A DNA stretch of 40,859 bases, from the NCBI GenBank assembly GCA_018646705.1, contig JABGUG010000004.1, positions 1 to 40,859 of the forward strand, given 5' to 3'. Position numbers and translations under genes: made by a program. This stretch comes from Candidatus Parcubacteria bacterium (lineage in GTDB: Bacteria; Patescibacteriota; Patescibacteriia; Magasanikbacterales; UBA922). Shown one piece after another: positions 25,521 to 39,548 of this stretch (position 1 is its first letter; each line of letters opens with the position of its first letter). Under the pieces are notes generated by a model. That model was given only the letters and a program-made list of their open reading frames with translations. It was not told the DNA's origin and searched no databases.

Positions 25521-27251
25521 TTACCCACCACCTAGGTCAATTTGACCCAACTCTCTTAAACTTGCATATTTTTTATCAAATAACACATCGTATTCTTCTA
25601 CAGAAAATTCCTTGTATTCTAAATCTGAATTTAGTGCATAGACAAAAATAATTTCTTCTTCTTTGTCTACTACAGATGCAACTCTTTTATAATTTTCGTT
25701 CTCTTCAAGATATTTTTTTACTTCTTCATGATTTTCATATTTTACAATATCAGGATATTTTTGTATGTAAGAATCAGTAAATAAAATAATTACAGAAGGA
25801 GGCTCTACAATATCTTTCATATTTTTACTAATACGCCTCCCAATATGCATTGTCGGTCCTTGCCCATACGAAGTGTGAAATACTATATCTTTTTGCCTTA
25901 ACCAACTATCTTCTTTTGATATAAATGGCATTGGTGAAATATCCAAATAATCTTGTATAACAAATCCAAGTGTCTTAATACCCAGATCTCTATGGAAACC
26001 AAAGTGATATGGACACCAAATAGACTGACAAGCTCTAGGAAAAGGAAACCACCCTTGGCGAGTCAATAAATTATCTGGTGTATAGCCTATATTGTATAAA
26101 GTTATTTGCAAAAAACCACATATTATCAAAAATAAAAAAACTATATATTTGTATATTTTTTTTATATTTAGATCACCAACTGTATATATAATTAAAATAA
26201 TACCAGGGAAAAATAATTCATTTACACGAGCTCCTGTACCTCCACCAACAAGTATCAACAATATAAACACGAGTACAAAATATAACAAACTAGTAAATAA
26301 AAAATTATTTTTTCTTGTTTTTTTAATTTTATAAAACAATATAATTGCCGCAACGATCATCGCGGGAAATAACACAATTCCTAATAAACCTAAACCATGT
26401 GACCCTAAATGTAAAAGTATATCTGGTTTATAATATTTTATTTGTGAAGTCTTACTAAACAATTTCGCAATTACCCCATACTCACCACCAAAACGGTCAT
26501 ACCCAATATAGCCCATCCCAAGGAGACCTATAAATGTAGTAATAGGAAACAATACCCAAGGGGACCAAATTATGTTCTTAAAAAATGTAGAAAATGTATC
26601 TTTCCAATTTTTAAATTTATTATAATAAAAAACCAATATATAGAGTATAAAAAAAATACCACTAAAGAAAAAAGTGGGTGTTGAAAAAATAAGTACTGAC
26701 GAAAGAATACAAAAATATATAAAATTCTTTTTTTCTCGTGTTTCTAAAAACTTATTCAAATAATATAAACCTGCAAAAAAAATAGGATAGAAATAGATTG
26801 ACCACCACGCAGCCTTAACCTGCATAATATAGTAAGGCACAGTACTAATAAGTAATGTGTACCAAAAAGCTTTTTTTATGTCAATTATACGTTTCAATAT
26901 TACATAATTCAACGCTGTTAGTAAAAAACCAGCCAAAATAAATATAAAACCTGCGACCTCCTTATTTATTGGAATATGAAATAAATCTACTACATAAAAA
27001 AATGGAAATAAAATTATAGGTCTCAAGGCACCATGGACATTTTTTAAAAGCTGCACTAGTGGATTTACAAACAATGCATCCACTCCCAAACTAAAAGAAA
27101 AATCCGAATTAACCAGTCGTAAAACCTTTATCAATTGCATCGAGGTGTCTTGGTGTAAATTTATAGCAAATGGACGAAATGTATATGATGCAAACAATAT
27201 AAATAATATGCACAAAAGAATAAAAGATAAATTCAGTCGTTTTTTGTACAT
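25521..27251 (-). CDS. Polytopic membrane protein, probable GT-C glycosyltransferase
   Basis: 576 residues with about ten or more hydrophobic helices up to roughly residue 385 and a C-terminal soluble part of about 190 residues that should be outside the cell. The first loop after helix 1 contains INLHQDTSMQLIK, with an acidic residue where GT-C enzymes (ArnT/PMT-like) carry their catalytic Asp. Such enzymes use polyprenyl-phosphate sugars as donors, and two gene modules here could make them. Close motif matches are lacking, so an O-antigen-polymerase-like role is the main alternative. AT-rich; 15 bases downstream of the GT2 gene at 27267. Confidence 0.6.
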   Translation of the reverse strand: MYKKRLNLSFILLCILFILFASYTFRPFAINLHQDTSMQLIKVLRLVNSDFSFSLGVDALFVNPLVQLLKNVHGALRPIILFPFFYVVDLFHIPINKEVAGFIFILAGFLLTALNYVILKRIIDIKKAFWYTLLISTVPYYIMQVKAAWWSIYFYPIFFAGLYYLNKFLETREKKNFIYFCILSSVLIFSTPTFFFSGIFFILYILVFYYNKFKNWKDTFSTFFKNIIWSPWVLFPITTFIGLLGMGYIGYDRFGGEYGVIAKLFSKTSQIKYYKPDILLHLGSHGLGLLGIVLFPAMIVAAIILFYKIKKTRKNNFLFTSLLYFVLVFILLILVGGGTGARVNELFFPGIILIIYTVGDLNIKKIYKYIVFLFLIICGFLQITLYNIGYTPDNLLTRQGWFPFPRACQSIWCPYHFGFHRDLGIKTLGFVIQDYLDISPMPFISKEDSWLRQKDIVFHTSYGQGPTMHIGRRISKNMKDIVEPPSVIILFTDSYIQKYPDIVKYENHEEVKKYLEENENYKRVASVVDKEEEIIFVYALNSDLEYKEFSVEEYDVLFDKKYASLRELGQIDLGGG

Positions 27252-32087: not shown

Positions 32088-33188
32088 CTATTTTAATTTT
32101 TCAACGACTAAATCAAGAGTTTTCAATCCTAAATCATCTCGCTCAATTACTGAACCGATTGAGCCTTTCTCCCTTTTCCATATTGAACCTGGACTACACA
32201 TCTGCTTCACAAGTCCATCCACCACTTCTTGTGATGCATAGTCTGAATCAATATACTCGGCACCAACTTTTACAAATAAATCACTATCTAATCTTAAACC
32301 ATTTTTAACAGCGTGACATATGACAGCGTCTAAATGTGGGTAATGAACACCTTTAAAAGCGTCGACGTCCCCACCCTCTTTTTCGTCTAGTGATTTATGA
32401 ATCTCGAGCCCATCCGTTGGCTTGGCACCAAGTGTTTTTTCAGGAACACCCAGCGCATATGCTATGGCAGGCAATTCTAAACCTTTAAGAATATTTTGAA
32501 TAGGGCCAAATGCACCAACATCTCCCATAAGTGTCCAAAATGCCATATATAATTCTGATAAATTATCAGTAGACATGACATATGATCCAGACTGTGTTGT
32601 CCCAAAAAAATTCACAATCATTCTCATTCTTGCCTTTACATTACCAAAACCACGACGCAACTCCTCTTCATTAAATTTAAAATCTTCGGCCAGCGGACTC
32701 AAGGATTTTTTAAACTCATCTAAAATATTATTCAAATTTTCTATTACTACATATCGTATCCCAAATGTTTGAGCTGTTTGACTTGCACGTAAATTATGTT
32801 CTGGATTGCTATATAGTGGTAAACCATAAGAAACCACATCAAACTCAATACCTAAATCTTTACTCAACTTTACAGCTTTACCAAGTAATCCACATACAGT
32901 TGCACTATCGAGACCACCAGAATTTCCTACGAACACTCGCTTCATTTTGTTTTCATTGTTGTATCTCAAAATTTCAACCACAGCACAAAAAATAACCTTG
33001 GCAATGTCTTCGTTATCTAAAAAATATGAATAGTCATGACTGTATGAAGAGAATTTATTTATGTCTTCTTTTGTAACAACTTGTAAATCAAAATATCTTG
33101 ACCAAAGATCTTTCTGACTTGAGTCGAACTCATTCCACATTTCAATTGCTTTTTTTGATAAATTTATTTTTGATAATATTTCTTGCAT
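32088..33188 (-). CDS. NAD+ synthetase (NadE)-like ATP-dependent amidotransferase
   Basis: About 366 residues. The PP-loop ATPase motif SGGLDSATVCGLL lies at about 90-102 (counting from the ATG). GNVKARMRMIVNFFG, STDNLSELYMAFWTLMGDVG and FGPIQNILKGLELPAIAYALG follow in the NadE order, then KPTDGLEI. The family adenylates nicotinate adenine dinucleotide and amidates it with ammonia; no glutaminase domain is present. The first 85 residues are unlike compact NadE. Its place between methyltransferase and glycosyltransferase genes suggests either simple co-location or amidation of a glycan carboxylate. ATG at 33188 is chosen; a GTG at 33206 overlaps the upstream stop and is a real alternative. Confidence 0.82.
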   Translation of the reverse strand: MQEILSKINLSKKAIEMWNEFDSSQKDLWSRYFDLQVVTKEDINKFSSYSHDYSYFLDNEDIAKVIFCAVVEILRYNNENKMKRVFVGNSGGLDSATVCGLLGKAVKLSKDLGIEFDVVSYGLPLYSNPEHNLRASQTAQTFGIRYVVIENLNNILDEFKKSLSPLAEDFKFNEEELRRGFGNVKARMRMIVNFFGTTQSGSYVMSTDNLSELYMAFWTLMGDVGAFGPIQNILKGLELPAIAYALGVPEKTLGAKPTDGLEIHKSLDEKEGGDVDAFKGVHYPHLDAVICHAVKNGLRLDSDLFVKVGAEYIDSDYASQEVVDGLVKQMCSPGSIWKREKGSIGSVIERDDLGLKTLDLVVEKLK

Positions 33189-33205
33189 ATTGTTTAATTT
33201 AATCA

Positions 33206-33907
33206 CTAATTCTTTTTTAATACTAATGTAAAACCACTCTTTTCATAAATTCCAAAGCCTAATCTTAATTTTATCAAATGTAATAGATAAAACATCTTAT
33301 TTAACAAACTGTCTTTGTTACCAAAACTTTTTATAGGAATATCCTGAGTAAAAGTATGTCTATAAACAAGATTCTCTTTTTTGTAAGATGAACTGATAAT
33401 GGTAGATGTGGAACTATCACTAATACCATTTACCAGATATTTAAGAAGGACTGCTGGATTATAAGGTTTAATATGAGAAAAATCATTATAAAATCCAGTA
33501 TACATCAACGGGGCACTAATAATTAAAATACCTCCTGGTTTTAATATTCTGTCTAGTTCTTTTATAAACTCATAAGCATCGCTATACTCCAAATGTTCAA
33601 TTACATGACTACAGTGTATGACATCAAAGAAATTATTTGAAAAATCAAATACTTTGGGAATCTTGTGATTAAATACATTTTTATATTTTTCTCTCAATTT
33701 TTCACAAGACATTTCGTTTCCATCCAGTAGATATATATCCTTTTTATCTACATAATCTGCAAAAGCACCATCACCTGCACCGATATCTAAAATCTTTTTA
33801 TCCTCTTCACAATATTTTTTTGCTATGTCGAAAAATGGCTTTCTATTAAAAGTAGCATATGTTCTAAAATCAGAATATCTTTTCTTAAATAACTTCAAAA
33901 TTTCCAT
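33206..33907 (-). CDS. Class I SAM-dependent methyltransferase
   Basis: 233 residues. Motif I is ILDIGAGDGAFADYV (about 40-54), with DIYLLDGNEMSCEKL, then DVIHCSHVIEHLEYSDAYEF and ILKPGGILIISAPLMYTGF (about 122-140). The motif order is that of Methyltransf_11-type enzymes, common for sugar O- or N-methylation. The stop TAG touches a possible GTG start of the NadE-like gene, indicating coupling. It follows the CotH-domain gene by 11 bases. Confidence 0.88.
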   Translation of the reverse strand: MEILKLFKKRYSDFRTYATFNRKPFFDIAKKYCEEDKKILDIGAGDGAFADYVDKKDIYLLDGNEMSCEKLREKYKNVFNHKIPKVFDFSNNFFDVIHCSHVIEHLEYSDAYEFIKELDRILKPGGILIISAPLMYTGFYNDFSHIKPYNPAVLLKYLVNGISDSSTSTIISSSYKKENLVYRHTFTQDIPIKSFGNKDSLLNKMFYLLHLIKLRLGFGIYEKSGFTLVLKKN

Positions 33908-33918
33908 ATAAAAATTTA

Positions 33919-36540
33919 TTAATATAATTTTGACACCACACCAGACTTATTACCAAGAATCTTTTCGTCGTCCCAAAAAAGGGTGGAGCCGTCTTCAATT
34001 ATAAATCTATTATCTACATTATCTAAGCTTACATTGTATACTACAATTTCAGCACCACCAAACTCCGATTTCTTCTGGTATGCTGCAAATCCGTATCGCA
34101 CATCTTTTAATTTAACACCTTGTAAAGAAACATGTGATTTATCCTTAGACGCAACACCTACGTAAGATGATTCTATAATAATATTTTGAGCATTCACCTC
34201 ACTTCTTTCTCCTATGCTAATTGCTTTATCACTTATTGACTCAAGATAAATGTTTTCTAACCAAACATTACTTCCTGAAAAATCAAGGGCATCTCCATTC
34301 GTATCTTCATCACCAATTGAAATAAAATGCGAATTATAAAGCCTTCCTACTGAAAAATCGAAGTCAATTGCATCTGCTAGACTATTCTTGATAGTCAAAT
34401 TTTCAATATCAAATTTTGAACGAATTATATTAATATAATCATCTCCATAATAGTTTGATGATGCGATAACGTGTTTCATAGAAACTGGGGACTCATAAAA
34501 TGTAATCGCTCCTGATATTGAAAAACCTTTTTTTTGTGGAGCAGACAAACCGTCAAATATGGTATGTTCGATAGTAGATGTCGCTCCAGCACCTATTACA
34601 CTTACTCCAAATCCGGTACTATCACTCGATATAATCTCTATAGGCACTTGCTGTGTACCCTTAAATTTTATAGGCGAATATGAAAAAATATGTGCTCGAT
34701 TTAATAGATCAATCTTAGCACCCTCATGAACAATCAAAGTATATCCTGCAGGAATTACAACCTCGTGATTAAGCTTCCATTCCCCCGTATGCACATGTAT
34801 TTCTTTCACATCTTCGTTAACATCAAAAAAGTTAACGCTCTGTATATTACCTTTTTGACTTAAACGTTCAATATCTGCATCAAGCCCAGATACACCTTCC
34901 CAATAAGAAAATCTGGCTACCTGTGTGTTATTTCCACCAAATACAGAATACGTGATAGACAAACCCTTTATATCAAATTCTTCTTTACTTACTCCTAATG
35001 ATGTCTGTAGATCAGTAAAATAAATCAATTCTTGATCCTTATGTGCCTGCAACACAACGGGATTTTGAGATAAATCAATAATTTTGTCAAAATATTTAAT
35101 TTCAACTAACTCGACTGGGAGATAATCTACATTCCCAAATTTAAAAGAAATATTACCACTTGTATCAATATCATCTACATAGGCATATATACGATCCTCT
35201 GCTTCCAAAACTCTTTTTATAAAAGCTTTATTTTCATATAGCGTATCTTTGGATCTAAAAATATAATATGGATGACTTCTGTATATTTTTTTTAAATTCT
35301 TCTCAAGGTCTTCATCTATTTCACCAAAAAAATCTTCCAATTCTTTACCATTTGAAACATCTTCAAGCGCGGCAACATAACTCTTGTAAAAAATTGGATC
35401 ATTAAATACTTGATCGATCCACGACATCTTATCATATTTCTTTTTTTCATCAAAAATAATTTCTTTTTGAGCTCCTACCAATCTCTGTGTTCTAACGATA
35501 AGCTGATTATCATAACCTACGGGTTCTAGTAGTCCAGTAATCGGATTATAATAAAATCTTATATTTTCAGTATCCAAAATATGGTACTGTCCCATCAGGT
35601 CTGACATTGCAAAAAGTTTAGCAAGCTTAGTAGTATTAAAAACTTCATGTGTTTTTAAATCACCCCTCCTAAATAATTCCAAAAGAGTTTGAGCACGATC
35701 AAACAGTTCGACTCTATCCTTATTTTCTTCTTTTGAATCATTATACAAGCCTGAATTAAACGCATCTACAAAACTAGTTGAATAACTCATGTCTCTTCCG
35801 ATCAAAATTCTCCAATAACTGTCAGTATCAAAACGTACAATGGGTCCTTCTTTATATTTATTATTTTCAATAAGACGCTTTTCAAAATGCTCTTCAAGTG
35901 CATAAACTCCTGCATTTTTTCCATTTATATATACTTTTACAAATTCATATCTAAGACCTATAAGATCATTATAAGATAAAAATTTATGAAACATCCATTC
36001 ATTTAAATAATCTCTTGTTTGTGGTTGTTGCACTGAAAAACTTTTCATACCATACACAGTATCATCGCCTTTCATTTTAACTCTAAAAGACCATTTGTAA
36101 GGATGGGCCCAATGATCTCTATTATCCCCTTTTAATCGTACTTCAACTGGTGAGGCTTCTCCACCCTGAGTCAATGTTGCAGAAACAAAATCATCGTCAG
36201 AACTTAATAAATAATTGTAATTAAGAGCATCTTCTCTTTTTGAAAGTAATTTTTGATAATTTTCATATTCAATATCAATACGCAGTGTATCGATGTGTTC
36301 AAAAAAACTCGATGTATAATGTGGGATTATACCAAAATTAGTACGGATAACATCCTTCGAAGTTTCAATTCCGATTCGTCTTACAAATGAAATAGAATAA
36401 AGACCAGAAGCTATTAATATAAAAAATATCGAACCAAATAAAAAGAAAATCTTCAATTTAAAAAAGCCAGAACTATCAAAATTACTAGTCTTTGAATTGC
36501 CCTTTCTTTTATTGTTTTTTATATTTATTTTACTATCCAT
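33919..36540 (-). CDS. Membrane-anchored CotH-kinase-domain protein with C-terminal parallel beta-helix
   Basis: 873 residues, the longest gene here. A basic cytoplasmic tail (1-27) and one transmembrane helix (about 29-52) leave the rest outside. Residues about 80-460 form a CotH-like domain: RLKGDNRDHWAHPYKWSFRV (about 135-154), SVQQPQTRDYLNEW, YEFVKVYINGKNAGVYALEEHF (about 198-219), and GLLEPVGYDNQLI with D344 in the position of the metal-binding Asp. CotH proteins are atypical secretory-pathway kinases that phosphorylate spore-coat proteins in Bacillus. Residues about 590-860 repeat short beta strands (SHFISIGDEDTNGDALDFSG, ENIYLESISDKAISIGER), as in right-handed parallel beta-helices that bind or cleave polysaccharide. 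It could modify or anchor the glycan at the surface. Confidence 0.85.
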   Translation of the reverse strand: MDSKINIKNNKRKGNSKTSNFDSSGFFKLKIFFLFGSIFFILIASGLYSISFVRRIGIETSKDVIRTNFGIIPHYTSSFFEHIDTLRIDIEYENYQKLLSKREDALNYNYLLSSDDDFVSATLTQGGEASPVEVRLKGDNRDHWAHPYKWSFRVKMKGDDTVYGMKSFSVQQPQTRDYLNEWMFHKFLSYNDLIGLRYEFVKVYINGKNAGVYALEEHFEKRLIENNKYKEGPIVRFDTDSYWRILIGRDMSYSTSFVDAFNSGLYNDSKEENKDRVELFDRAQTLLELFRRGDLKTHEVFNTTKLAKLFAMSDLMGQYHILDTENIRFYYNPITGLLEPVGYDNQLIVRTQRLVGAQKEIIFDEKKKYDKMSWIDQVFNDPIFYKSYVAALEDVSNGKELEDFFGEIDEDLEKNLKKIYRSHPYYIFRSKDTLYENKAFIKRVLEAEDRIYAYVDDIDTSGNISFKFGNVDYLPVELVEIKYFDKIIDLSQNPVVLQAHKDQELIYFTDLQTSLGVSKEEFDIKGLSITYSVFGGNNTQVARFSYWEGVSGLDADIERLSQKGNIQSVNFFDVNEDVKEIHVHTGEWKLNHEVVIPAGYTLIVHEGAKIDLLNRAHIFSYSPIKFKGTQQVPIEIISSDSTGFGVSVIGAGATSTIEHTIFDGLSAPQKKGFSISGAITFYESPVSMKHVIASSNYYGDDYINIIRSKFDIENLTIKNSLADAIDFDFSVGRLYNSHFISIGDEDTNGDALDFSGSNVWLENIYLESISDKAISIGERSEVNAQNIIIESSYVGVASKDKSHVSLQGVKLKDVRYGFAAYQKKSEFGGAEIVVYNVSLDNVDNRFIIEDGSTLFWDDEKILGNKSGVVSKLY

Positions 36541-36566: not shown

Positions 36567-38117
36567 TCAGTTTTTTTTCTTTAAAATAAGCTTATTATAG
36601 GTCAATCTACTAAGAGTGTCAATCACTACTTTCCTTTCATCCTCAAGCAAAGAAAACTTAAATACAAGCCATAAAAACACAAAAAATACACAACCAGCAA
36701 GAACTAATTGTGCATACATATTGACTACAAATAATATACCTACGTACATTAAAATAAAAAATAGACTAGGAACCAAAAGACCAATTATAATACGTTTTAA
36801 TTCATTAAAAGGAGATATATCTATATGACGTTTTAACTGCCTAGGTAATGAAATAGCAACAGTACATAAATTTGCCGTTACTGTGCCTATGGCCACACCA
36901 ACTATTCCTATTTTTGATACTAAAATAATTGATATTGATAAATTTATTATCGTTTCAAAAATACTTGGGACAAGTTGGTTTTTTTGCAAAAACATGGCAT
37001 TTATAAAAACCCAATGAGACCCAGACCACGTGATAACCATGAAAGTAAGACAAAAAACCCCCACCAATAAATAGCTATCAAATAATTCTACCCCAACCCA
37101 TAGGCTGATAATTTGTCTGGAAAATAATAATATAAACAATAATATAGAATATTTACTTATTATATTTAAACGCAATATTTGAGAATATTTACTTGCAAGT
37201 GCCTTAAAATTTTTTTCGCCAAACAATCCAGTAATTATTGGATAACTTGATGTTGCTATAGGTAAGGCGGCACACGGCAATTTAAACAACTTATATCCAA
37301 TTGAATATATTGCAACACTTGCGACTCCGACATAGTGAGACAAAACAATATTATCACTCATCATGACCACAGCAGTCGTAATAGATAAAACGAAAAAAAC
37401 AAAACTATGCTCTCTTAATTCATAAAGATGTCTAAATATTTTGGCTTTTAGTACAAAAGAAAACCATTTATGTTTTTTGTAAAAATAAAAAAGAAAAGAT
37501 GATAATTTCAATATATTATAAAGTCCTTGAAATACTGCGATTGCAAAAATACTTGGAGAACCTAAAAGAAATAAAATAAATGTTACGGAGTATAAAAGAG
37601 TTCCTATACCATTTCCAATATTAAATTCTACAACCTCGTTCATTCCATGATATAAAGAACGTATGGTTCCACCAAACAAAACATTAACTGATGCAAAAAT
37701 TATCATTATAATAAATAAATCTCTTGTTTTATCATACAAATGAATGGAATCCTTTAGAAAAAAACTTACATCTATAATTCCAGAAAGAATTGAAAAAACC
37801 AAAAACAAAACGATTGGGATTATAAGTAAAGCAAAGAAAGCAACCGCACCTGAAAAAATTTCATTTATTGAATTCCATTTCTTTTCAACTCGAAAATAGC
37901 TTATCTTATTGGTTACAGCCGTAGTTACCCCAAAATCAGTCAGGCCAATAAAACCTGTGATAGAAAGAACAAGGGCATATAGCCCGTACATGTCCATACC
38001 AACAGCCTTTAACATTAAAGGCACTGTGATAATTGAAGCCAGGAGAGACACGACCATCTGTATGGATCCAGTGGCTGCACCTGATATTATTCTTTTTACA
38101 CCATGTTTATTTGACAC
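36567..38117 (-). CDS. Wzx-type oligosaccharide flippase (polysaccharide biosynthesis protein)
   Basis: 516 residues with about 12-14 predicted membrane helices. It opens with SGAATGSIQMVVSLLASIITVPLMLKAVG and DMYGLYALVLSITGFIGLTDFG, the standard first helices of the MATE/MOP-superfamily flippases that move undecaprenyl-linked oligosaccharides outward. The start codon is GTG at 38117, which keeps the first helix whole; the next ATG would truncate it. This is the only lipid-linked-oligosaccharide exporter in the window, and no ABC-2 transporter is seen. It lies 52 bases after the HTH regulator and 26 before the CotH-domain gene. Confidence 0.92.
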   Translation of the reverse strand: MSNKHGVKRIISGAATGSIQMVVSLLASIITVPLMLKAVGMDMYGLYALVLSITGFIGLTDFGVTTAVTNKISYFRVEKKWNSINEIFSGAVAFFALLIIPIVLFLVFSILSGIIDVSFFLKDSIHLYDKTRDLFIIMIIFASVNVLFGGTIRSLYHGMNEVVEFNIGNGIGTLLYSVTFILFLLGSPSIFAIAVFQGLYNILKLSSFLFYFYKKHKWFSFVLKAKIFRHLYELREHSFVFFVLSITTAVVMMSDNIVLSHYVGVASVAIYSIGYKLFKLPCAALPIATSSYPIITGLFGEKNFKALASKYSQILRLNIISKYSILLFILLFSRQIISLWVGVELFDSYLLVGVFCLTFMVITWSGSHWVFINAMFLQKNQLVPSIFETIINLSISIILVSKIGIVGVAIGTVTANLCTVAISLPRQLKRHIDISPFNELKRIIIGLLVPSLFFILMYVGILFVVNMYAQLVLAGCVFFVFLWLVFKFSLLEDERKVVIDTLSRLTYNKLILKKKN

Positions 38118-38480: not shown

Positions 38481-39548
38481 TTATGTCTTAAATTCGTGTA
38501 TGTTGAGCTCTTTTTCAATCCCAAGTATTTGGGCAATTATACTTACTCCCCATAGAAATAACACGGTACCGTGCATATCGGGCTCCTTATACCCACGAGA
38601 CAAACGAGCTCCATAATAGCGAGTATTTGCCTTATGTTCAAAAAAAGAAAAACCGCCTTTATCTTTGTAATAATATTTCTTATACAACTCTAAACGTCTC
38701 TTTACAAAAGAAACGATTTCTTCGTGTCTATACTGCCCATCAGTAGCGATATTTGCATACTTCAACACATACAAAATATTAAAATTATCACACGCTTGTT
38801 TATCATGCTGAGATTTTAAACACACATCTATCAAACCTTTTGGGTTGTGCAATTTTACCTTATCAATCACATTCATACCTGTGATGACTTTCATAGCACC
38901 GTTGATACGATCTTGCAAACTAGCACCCTCAGAATACCAGAGACCATCCTCCCTTTCTACATTTTTGAGCCAATCTTGTGCCGCATCTAATAAGACTTCC
39001 TTATCTTTGAGGGTGCTCGTATGTAAAAAGAATATCAAAATACTATAATGAGCACCTGCGTGCCACGGACGTGTCCAATTTAATTTTGAAAGATATTTTT
39101 CAATCCCCTCTTTATCATTTGGAAGTGATTTTGGATATTTAGAAATAATGCTTTGATCAAACAACCGAAGAGACGATATGGACTGGCGTGTTTCACCAAG
39201 TTTTGTATACATACCAACAGCATGATTCCAATCTCTATATCTCAAACCATTAAACAAACTTCTGGGTGAAGACAACAAACGAACAAGTGGATCAAAATAT
39301 AACCCTGATCTATTCTCAAATGTCTGTATATATTTTTGAACCTCTTTGATTTCTTCTACAAACTGATCTTGCAAATTAAGTGTATATACAATTTTTAGAA
39401 AAAAAGTTGCCTGCCCAAGTCCCCAATGCACACGCTCACCAAAAAAATCTCCTGAATAGGAATACTTAAAAAATCCCGGACGACTTTTTCCTTTCATTTC
39501 CCTCAAAAAATGAGACGTTTCTTTTTTTAATTCAAAGACCCACTCCAT
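38481..39548 (-). CDS. Unassigned mostly helical protein, possibly alpha/alpha-toroid
   Basis: 355 residues, no signal peptide or membrane helix. I do not recognise a family. Features seen are paired helices separated by Gly/aromatic-rich turns (WGLGQATFFLKIVYTL, NWTRPWHAGAHYSILIFF, REDGLWYSEGASLQDRINGA, DKGGFSFFEHKANTRYYGAR, EPDMHGTVLFLWGVSIIAQI). This pattern is reminiscent of alpha/alpha-barrel enzymes such as terpenoid-cyclase-like, glucuronyl-epimerase or lyase folds. Conserved-looking polar aromatics (WH, HY, RY, DMHG) could line an active site. It lies between a GT4 gene and the HTH regulator in the glycan locus, so a carbohydrate-active role is a guess only. Confidence 0.6.
   Translation of the reverse strand: MEWVFELKKETSHFLREMKGKSRPGFFKYSYSGDFFGERVHWGLGQATFFLKIVYTLNLQDQFVEEIKEVQKYIQTFENRSGLYFDPLVRLLSSPRSLFNGLRYRDWNHAVGMYTKLGETRQSISSLRLFDQSIISKYPKSLPNDKEGIEKYLSKLNWTRPWHAGAHYSILIFFLHTSTLKDKEVLLDAAQDWLKNVEREDGLWYSEGASLQDRINGAMKVITGMNVIDKVKLHNPKGLIDVCLKSQHDKQACDNFNILYVLKYANIATDGQYRHEEIVSFVKRRLELYKKYYYKDKGGFSFFEHKANTRYYGARLSRGYKEPDMHGTVLFLWGVSIIAQILGIEKELNIHEFKT

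Follow-up and report, generated by a model that had tools for sequence, protein, structure and literature searches.

The gene at positions 33919-36540 (minus strand) of the window, i.e. the whole 40,859-nucleotide stretch of DNA that was analysed, encodes a membrane-anchored protein in which a CotH kinase-like fold is joined to a right-handed parallel β-helix. The protein belongs to a family whose usual genetic unit is a cassette of DUF4956 (a membrane protein), CotH–β-helix and VTC (a polyphosphate polymerase) genes, and the loss of the catalytic aspartate from its CotH part looks, on sequence grounds, like a property of the CotH–β-helix clade. Taken as a whole, the explanation we prefer, to which about even weight is given, is that of an anchored surface factor whose target is an exported polymer and which is either pseudokinase-like or a transferase of non-canonical type.

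Operon setting and domain architecture

The open reading frame, which has an ATG start and encodes 873 residues, was identified by its Pfam CotH match and a structural model; it lies directly downstream of a flippase gene (MatE; 36567-38117, ORF list and Pfam), exactly as the preliminary description had it, with a gap of 26 bases, and is separated by 11 bases from the start of the next operon gene, which encodes a SAM methyltransferase (33206-33907). These genes, and all features of the protein given below, are on the minus strand. They form part of a tight, single-strand glycan operon, including glycosyltransferases, two UDP-sugar dehydrogenases, a DegT aminotransferase, FkbM and other methyltransferases and the flippase, and the neighbouring genes thus bear out the assignment to a glycan locus. 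Two further glycan-operon proteins have no Pfam match (25521-27251, 576 residues; 38481-39548, 355 residues), and a 372-residue NAD-synthase-like protein (32088-33206) is also encoded within the operon. The window also encodes TruB, RNase Y and a penicillin-binding protein, which mark its source as bacterial; among the window proteins that were scanned, none matched a Pfam family of Pel (pelDEAFG). The source genome is 1.04 Mb in size. The G+C content of the CotH–β-helix gene (about 29-32%) is like that of its surroundings, giving no compositional sign of recent transfer. An IMG/VR scan gave one short fragment only, hence no indication that the gene is viral, and a PHROGs search gave no match; a plasmid search with the window protein gave none either.

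An AlphaFold2 model (built with 39 relatives aligned; pLDDT 87.6) and hydropathy both place a single transmembrane helix at the N terminus (residues 25-55; 36376-36468), hydropathy giving no second membrane segment. Because there is a single anchor and the N terminus is basic, it can be inferred that the positively charged side of the helix is inside and the remainder of the protein outside. The CotH kinase-like fold follows (residues 85-445; 35206-36288). It is identified by Pfam (PF08757, 36.1 bits against a cut-off of 23.8, E 6.9e-9, residues 149-426), by a search of the family profile against solved structures, which matched Bacillus cereus CotH (5jd9/5jda, E 1.4e-11), and by Foldseek, the top match of the model being B. 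cereus CotH 5jd9 (E 7.9e-13, TM by target 0.67); querying the PDB directly with the sequence of this one protein gave no match. A β-sandwich domain without a family match comes next in the model (residues 451-543; 34912-35190), and then the pectate-lyase/GH28-like parallel β-helix (residues 572-862; 33955-34827), which is evident from the strand repeat of the model and from Foldseek, where the next matches were to β-helix polysaccharide enzymes (GH87, polygalacturonases and the alginate epimerase AlgG). For the window protein itself Pfam gives only weak β-helix matches, whereas the CotH match is above cut-off; in 40 family members Beta_helix was detected in 23 and Pect-lyase in 15. The anchor and the two domains named in the preliminary description are therefore confirmed; the β-sandwich between the two domains had been overlooked.

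Apparent loss of the catalytic Asp and the β-helix ladder

The active-site stretch of the CotH fold, as defined by profile alignments and by the relatives' columns, runs from H320 to D344 (35509-35583). A profile alignment sets NFDGFVHN...PWD of B. cereus CotH against YHILDTEN...GYD of the window protein, such that I321 takes the position of the catalytic Asp228, an assignment made from distant profile alignments as opposed to residue-level structural superposition. In the same alignment N326 corresponds to Asn233 and D344, 23 residues on from I321, to Asp251; the 23-residue Asp228–Asp251 spacing agrees with the B. cereus sequence. K149 is also kept. The proposal that D344 is an active-site residue holds, in that it aligns with the metal-binding Asp251 of Bacillus subtilis CotH, and N326 is likewise kept, but the change of Asp228 to I321 leaves an intact kinase unsupported. 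Of the loss of kinase active-site residues, which the preliminary description had itself set as a refuting finding, half is thus observed.

The same change is found beyond the window copy. None of 70 clade relatives has an aspartate at the catalytic column, and only three have one anywhere between H320 and N326, with H320 (68/70), N326 (64/70) and D344 (64/70) being conserved. By contrast, CotHs of VTC-linked loci in Pseudobutyrivibrio, Planococcus and Nonomuraea retain, by eye, N-x-D at the site; DUF4956 was detected at the first two of these loci. It is because of this difference that the loss looks particular to the β-helix clade, rather than the result of damage in the window copy. D323, present in the window copy two residues past I321, could in principle fill the Asp228 site there. 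With Ile at the catalytic position and no aspartate there in the 70 relatives, an ordinary CotH-type Ser/Thr kinase is unlikely.

In some order-level relatives the CotH–β-helix gene is preceded by a gene for a short CotH (556-575 residues) without a β-helix (L033:7329-9056, L034:9870-11540 and L028:7421-9094). The L033 and L034 proteins retain HQDWGHN at the active site, with the aspartate one place off the CotH register; the L028 protein has neither the active-site histidine nor the aspartate.

The strongest conservation of the entire protein is in the β-helix, where alignments of relatives reveal a polar ladder of invariant or nearly invariant residues on successive rungs (34069-34440). D723, D726, D728, D750 and S802 are conserved in all 80 sequences aligned and D701, N704, S755, D771, G777, E778, S780, K799, D800, K823 and K824 in 79 of them, D753 and K772 completing the ladder; its conservation was also read in the 40-member set. 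The residues recur every ~22-25 positions, with one set per rung, and should thus line one face. With this ladder, the β-helix is the probable polymer-handling part. The order D723, D750, D771-K772-x-x-S-x-G, K799 resembles, by eye, the Asp / Asp-Asp / His / Arg-x-Lys order of GH28, the Asp and Lys positions being plausible and the catalytic histidine of GH28 being replaced by lysine in the family. The Pfam GH28 match (residues 709-790) scores 15.2 bits, below the cut-off of 22.9, and the β-helix profile found rhamnogalacturonase and exopolygalacturonase in the PDB at E about 1 only. The GH28-like order and spacing are, as a sequence resemblance, a lead. Matches of the same profile to insect-virus capsid structures were dismissed as chance.

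The DUF4956/VTC cassette and the window copy

A contig scan with the single window protein found no relatives, unlike a search with the β-helix alignment, which located 356 places encoding relatives in one-per-species GTDB genomes. The best 80 of these 356 are from Patescibacteria, Omnitrophota, Bacteroidota (mostly Saprospiraceae), Planctomycetota, Woesearchaeota, Pacearchaeota, SAR11-type and Prochlorococcus single cells, and others. CotH is fused to the β-helix in all but a few of the full-length genes sampled, across many phyla, including DPANN archaea. The literature, as far as searched, yielded neither a description of the CotH–β-helix family nor biochemical work on any of its proteins.

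Full-length genes flanked by 2.5 kb or more per side numbered 59; of these, 48 have DUF4956 next to them and 33 have VTC as well as DUF4956, the identities of VTC and DUF4956 having been checked by Pfam in order-level relatives. Across 287 genomes of the phylum, CotH occurs in 19, VTC in 19 and DUF4956 in 20, with all three in 16; CotH coincides with DUF4956 in 18 genomes, where 1.3 were expected, and with VTC in 16, again against 1.3, kinship being ignored. The survey thus alters two expectations of the preliminary description, i.e. the fusion is not peculiar to the window locus, being the central gene of a widespread cassette, and a conserved partnership with the Wzx flippase is rejected, a homologue of the window flippase being found beside none of ~80 relatives examined. 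On plasmid pNP95 of Pseudobutyrivibrio xylanivorans (L147), CotH, polyphosphate polymerase and DUF4956 genes adjoin one another in a glycan cluster that is, as far as annotated, outside Pel. In many Saprospiraceae (e.g. L065:10895-13660, L071:10815-13526 and L093:10810-13536) a protein of ~900 residues is encoded after DUF4956 and CotH–β-helix, at the place expected for VTC. Culturable relatives with DUF4956 and CotH–β-helix genes include Flavilitoribacter nigricans DSM 23189 and Phaeodactylibacter (L094, L087).

The window itself encodes neither VTC nor DUF4956, so the three-gene adjacency is absent from it. The source genome has one of each, both beside a second CotH–β-helix gene on contig C34 (locus L032:13101-17300), in which the 900-residue paralogue is followed by VTC and DUF4956; all three families thus occur together in the genome. 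The family tree groups the C34 paralogue with sequences from the window's own order. It puts the window gene elsewhere, in a cosmopolitan clade that contains neither the paralogue nor any relative sampled from that order; the nearest neighbour of the window gene there is a Woesearchaeota sequence (support 95, with long branches that make the exact sister unsure). Four other copies of the window type are present in the phylum sample, all near sugar-nucleotide genes; DUF4956 is adjacent in all four and VTC in three, the fourth being cut by its contig end. The window copy is hence an unusual stand-alone member in a flippase-containing glycan operon, and, with neither partner of the cassette next to it, may have taken on a different role.

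Possible functions and relation to known systems

In the explanation that we prefer, one N-terminal helix would anchor the protein, with the CotH fold, the β-sandwich and the β-helix facing outwards. The family would help an exported glycan or polymer to mature or to become attached to the surface, and the β-helix, with its conserved acid/lysine ladder, would handle that polymer. Because the metal-site Asp and the Asn are kept and the catalytic Asp lost, the CotH part may be a ligand-binding pseudokinase, or, if it has any catalytic activity, a transferase with altered chemistry. The window copy may act on the glycan of its operon alone, or may share the VTC/DUF4956 pair encoded with the C34 paralogue. 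A surface-polymer function is the most economical reading of the operon context and the fold analogies; against it, there are β-helices of the same fold that act simply in binding or as structural elements.

It is possible, but doubtful, that the protein is purely structural or adhesive, with both domains having degenerated from enzymes and serving to hold on to the cell's surface glycan or to another cell. Patescibacteria with small genomes are generally regarded as living in attachment to a host cell, and the membrane anchor, the missing catalytic Asp and the sub-threshold GH28 score would all suit such a role; the invariance across phyla of polar β-helix positions, e.g. D723, D726, D728, D750 and S802, is, however, beyond what is expected of a plain scaffold, and the tight co-occurrence with VTC and DUF4956 suggests a biochemical pathway. 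The view of the preliminary description, that of a CotH-type kinase active outside the cytoplasm and phosphorylating either the glycan that is exported or a protein of the surface, appears unlikely. Pseudokinase-like folds can be active, e.g. SelO, and the CotH match above cut-off, the retention of D344, N326 and K149, and the Asp in the catalytic stretch of some of the short partner CotHs and of the Firmicute cassette CotHs are consistent with activity, but the window copy has Ile at the catalytic position, all 70 clade relatives have a non-Asp residue there, and ATP is not expected outside the membrane. The D228Q mutant of B. subtilis CotH, the equivalent Gln change, is reported to be inactive, as is D251A (PMC7821199).

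A surface enzyme that cleaves polysaccharide, in the manner of a GH28-like hydrolase or a lyase cutting back the polymer as it is exported, and has CotH as a binding domain, is a sharper form of the preferred explanation, not its opposite, and is advanced here only tentatively. The rung motif order as read by eye, the weak Pfam GH28 match, the Foldseek matches to polygalacturonases and the finding that SIR_1591, an accessory gene product of the Streptococcus intermedius Pel operon, is an active glycoside hydrolase (PMC12345266) point towards it; the sub-threshold GH28 score, the substitution of Lys for the GH28 His and the E-values of about 1 in the PDB profile search point away. A more elaborate proposal, which we consider decidedly improbable, is that the cassette constitutes a system for surface polymers that is uncharacterised and spans phyla, in bacteria as well as DPANN archaea. 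VTC would make polyphosphate, which would be passed through the membrane to the Asp228-less CotH; CotH would then use it in place of ATP when modifying the exported glycan that the β-helix holds.

CotH folds are usually annotated as kinases, so a large clade without the catalytic Asp implies that hundreds of annotations may mislead. The cassette hints that surface polymers may be completed by a system common to many organisms. Its linkage gives grounds for testing whether polyphosphate or phosphorylated intermediates take part as such polymers mature, and is relevant to the question of how phosphorylation could proceed outside the membrane, where there is little ATP.

Compared with the CotH kinases (PF08757; B. 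subtilis and B. cereus CotH, 5jd9 and 5jda), the window protein has the same fold and keeps the Asn233 and Asp251 positions, but is without the catalytic Asp228 and is fused to a membrane anchor, a β-sandwich and a β-helix; since its host is not a spore former, spore-coat substrates are not expected. With polygalacturonases and AlgG (pectate-lyase-like/GH28) it has in common a right-handed parallel β-helix and, plausibly, conserved Asp and Lys on successive rungs, although it falls below the family cut-offs and its residue set differs, including Lys for the GH28 His.

The closest precedent for the gene set is in Gram-positive Pel exopolysaccharide operons, of which CotH, polyphosphate polymerase and DUF4956 are accessory genes (PMC7112168). 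In S. intermedius, Pel rose when the DUF4956-type gene was deleted and fell when the CotH gene was; either deletion cut aggregation in artificial sputum by more than half (PMC12345266). The same work did not find the synteny of the three genes outside Pel loci, a remark against which the linkage of VTC and DUF4956 observed here runs. The S. intermedius set (SIR_1592-1594) thus has the same three kinds of protein in one cassette beside exopolysaccharide genes, and differs in that its CotH ends in FN3 (PMC12345266) and lies beside pelDEADAFG, whereas the window copy is without both partners in cis, and the present family ends in a β-helix and extends over many phyla.
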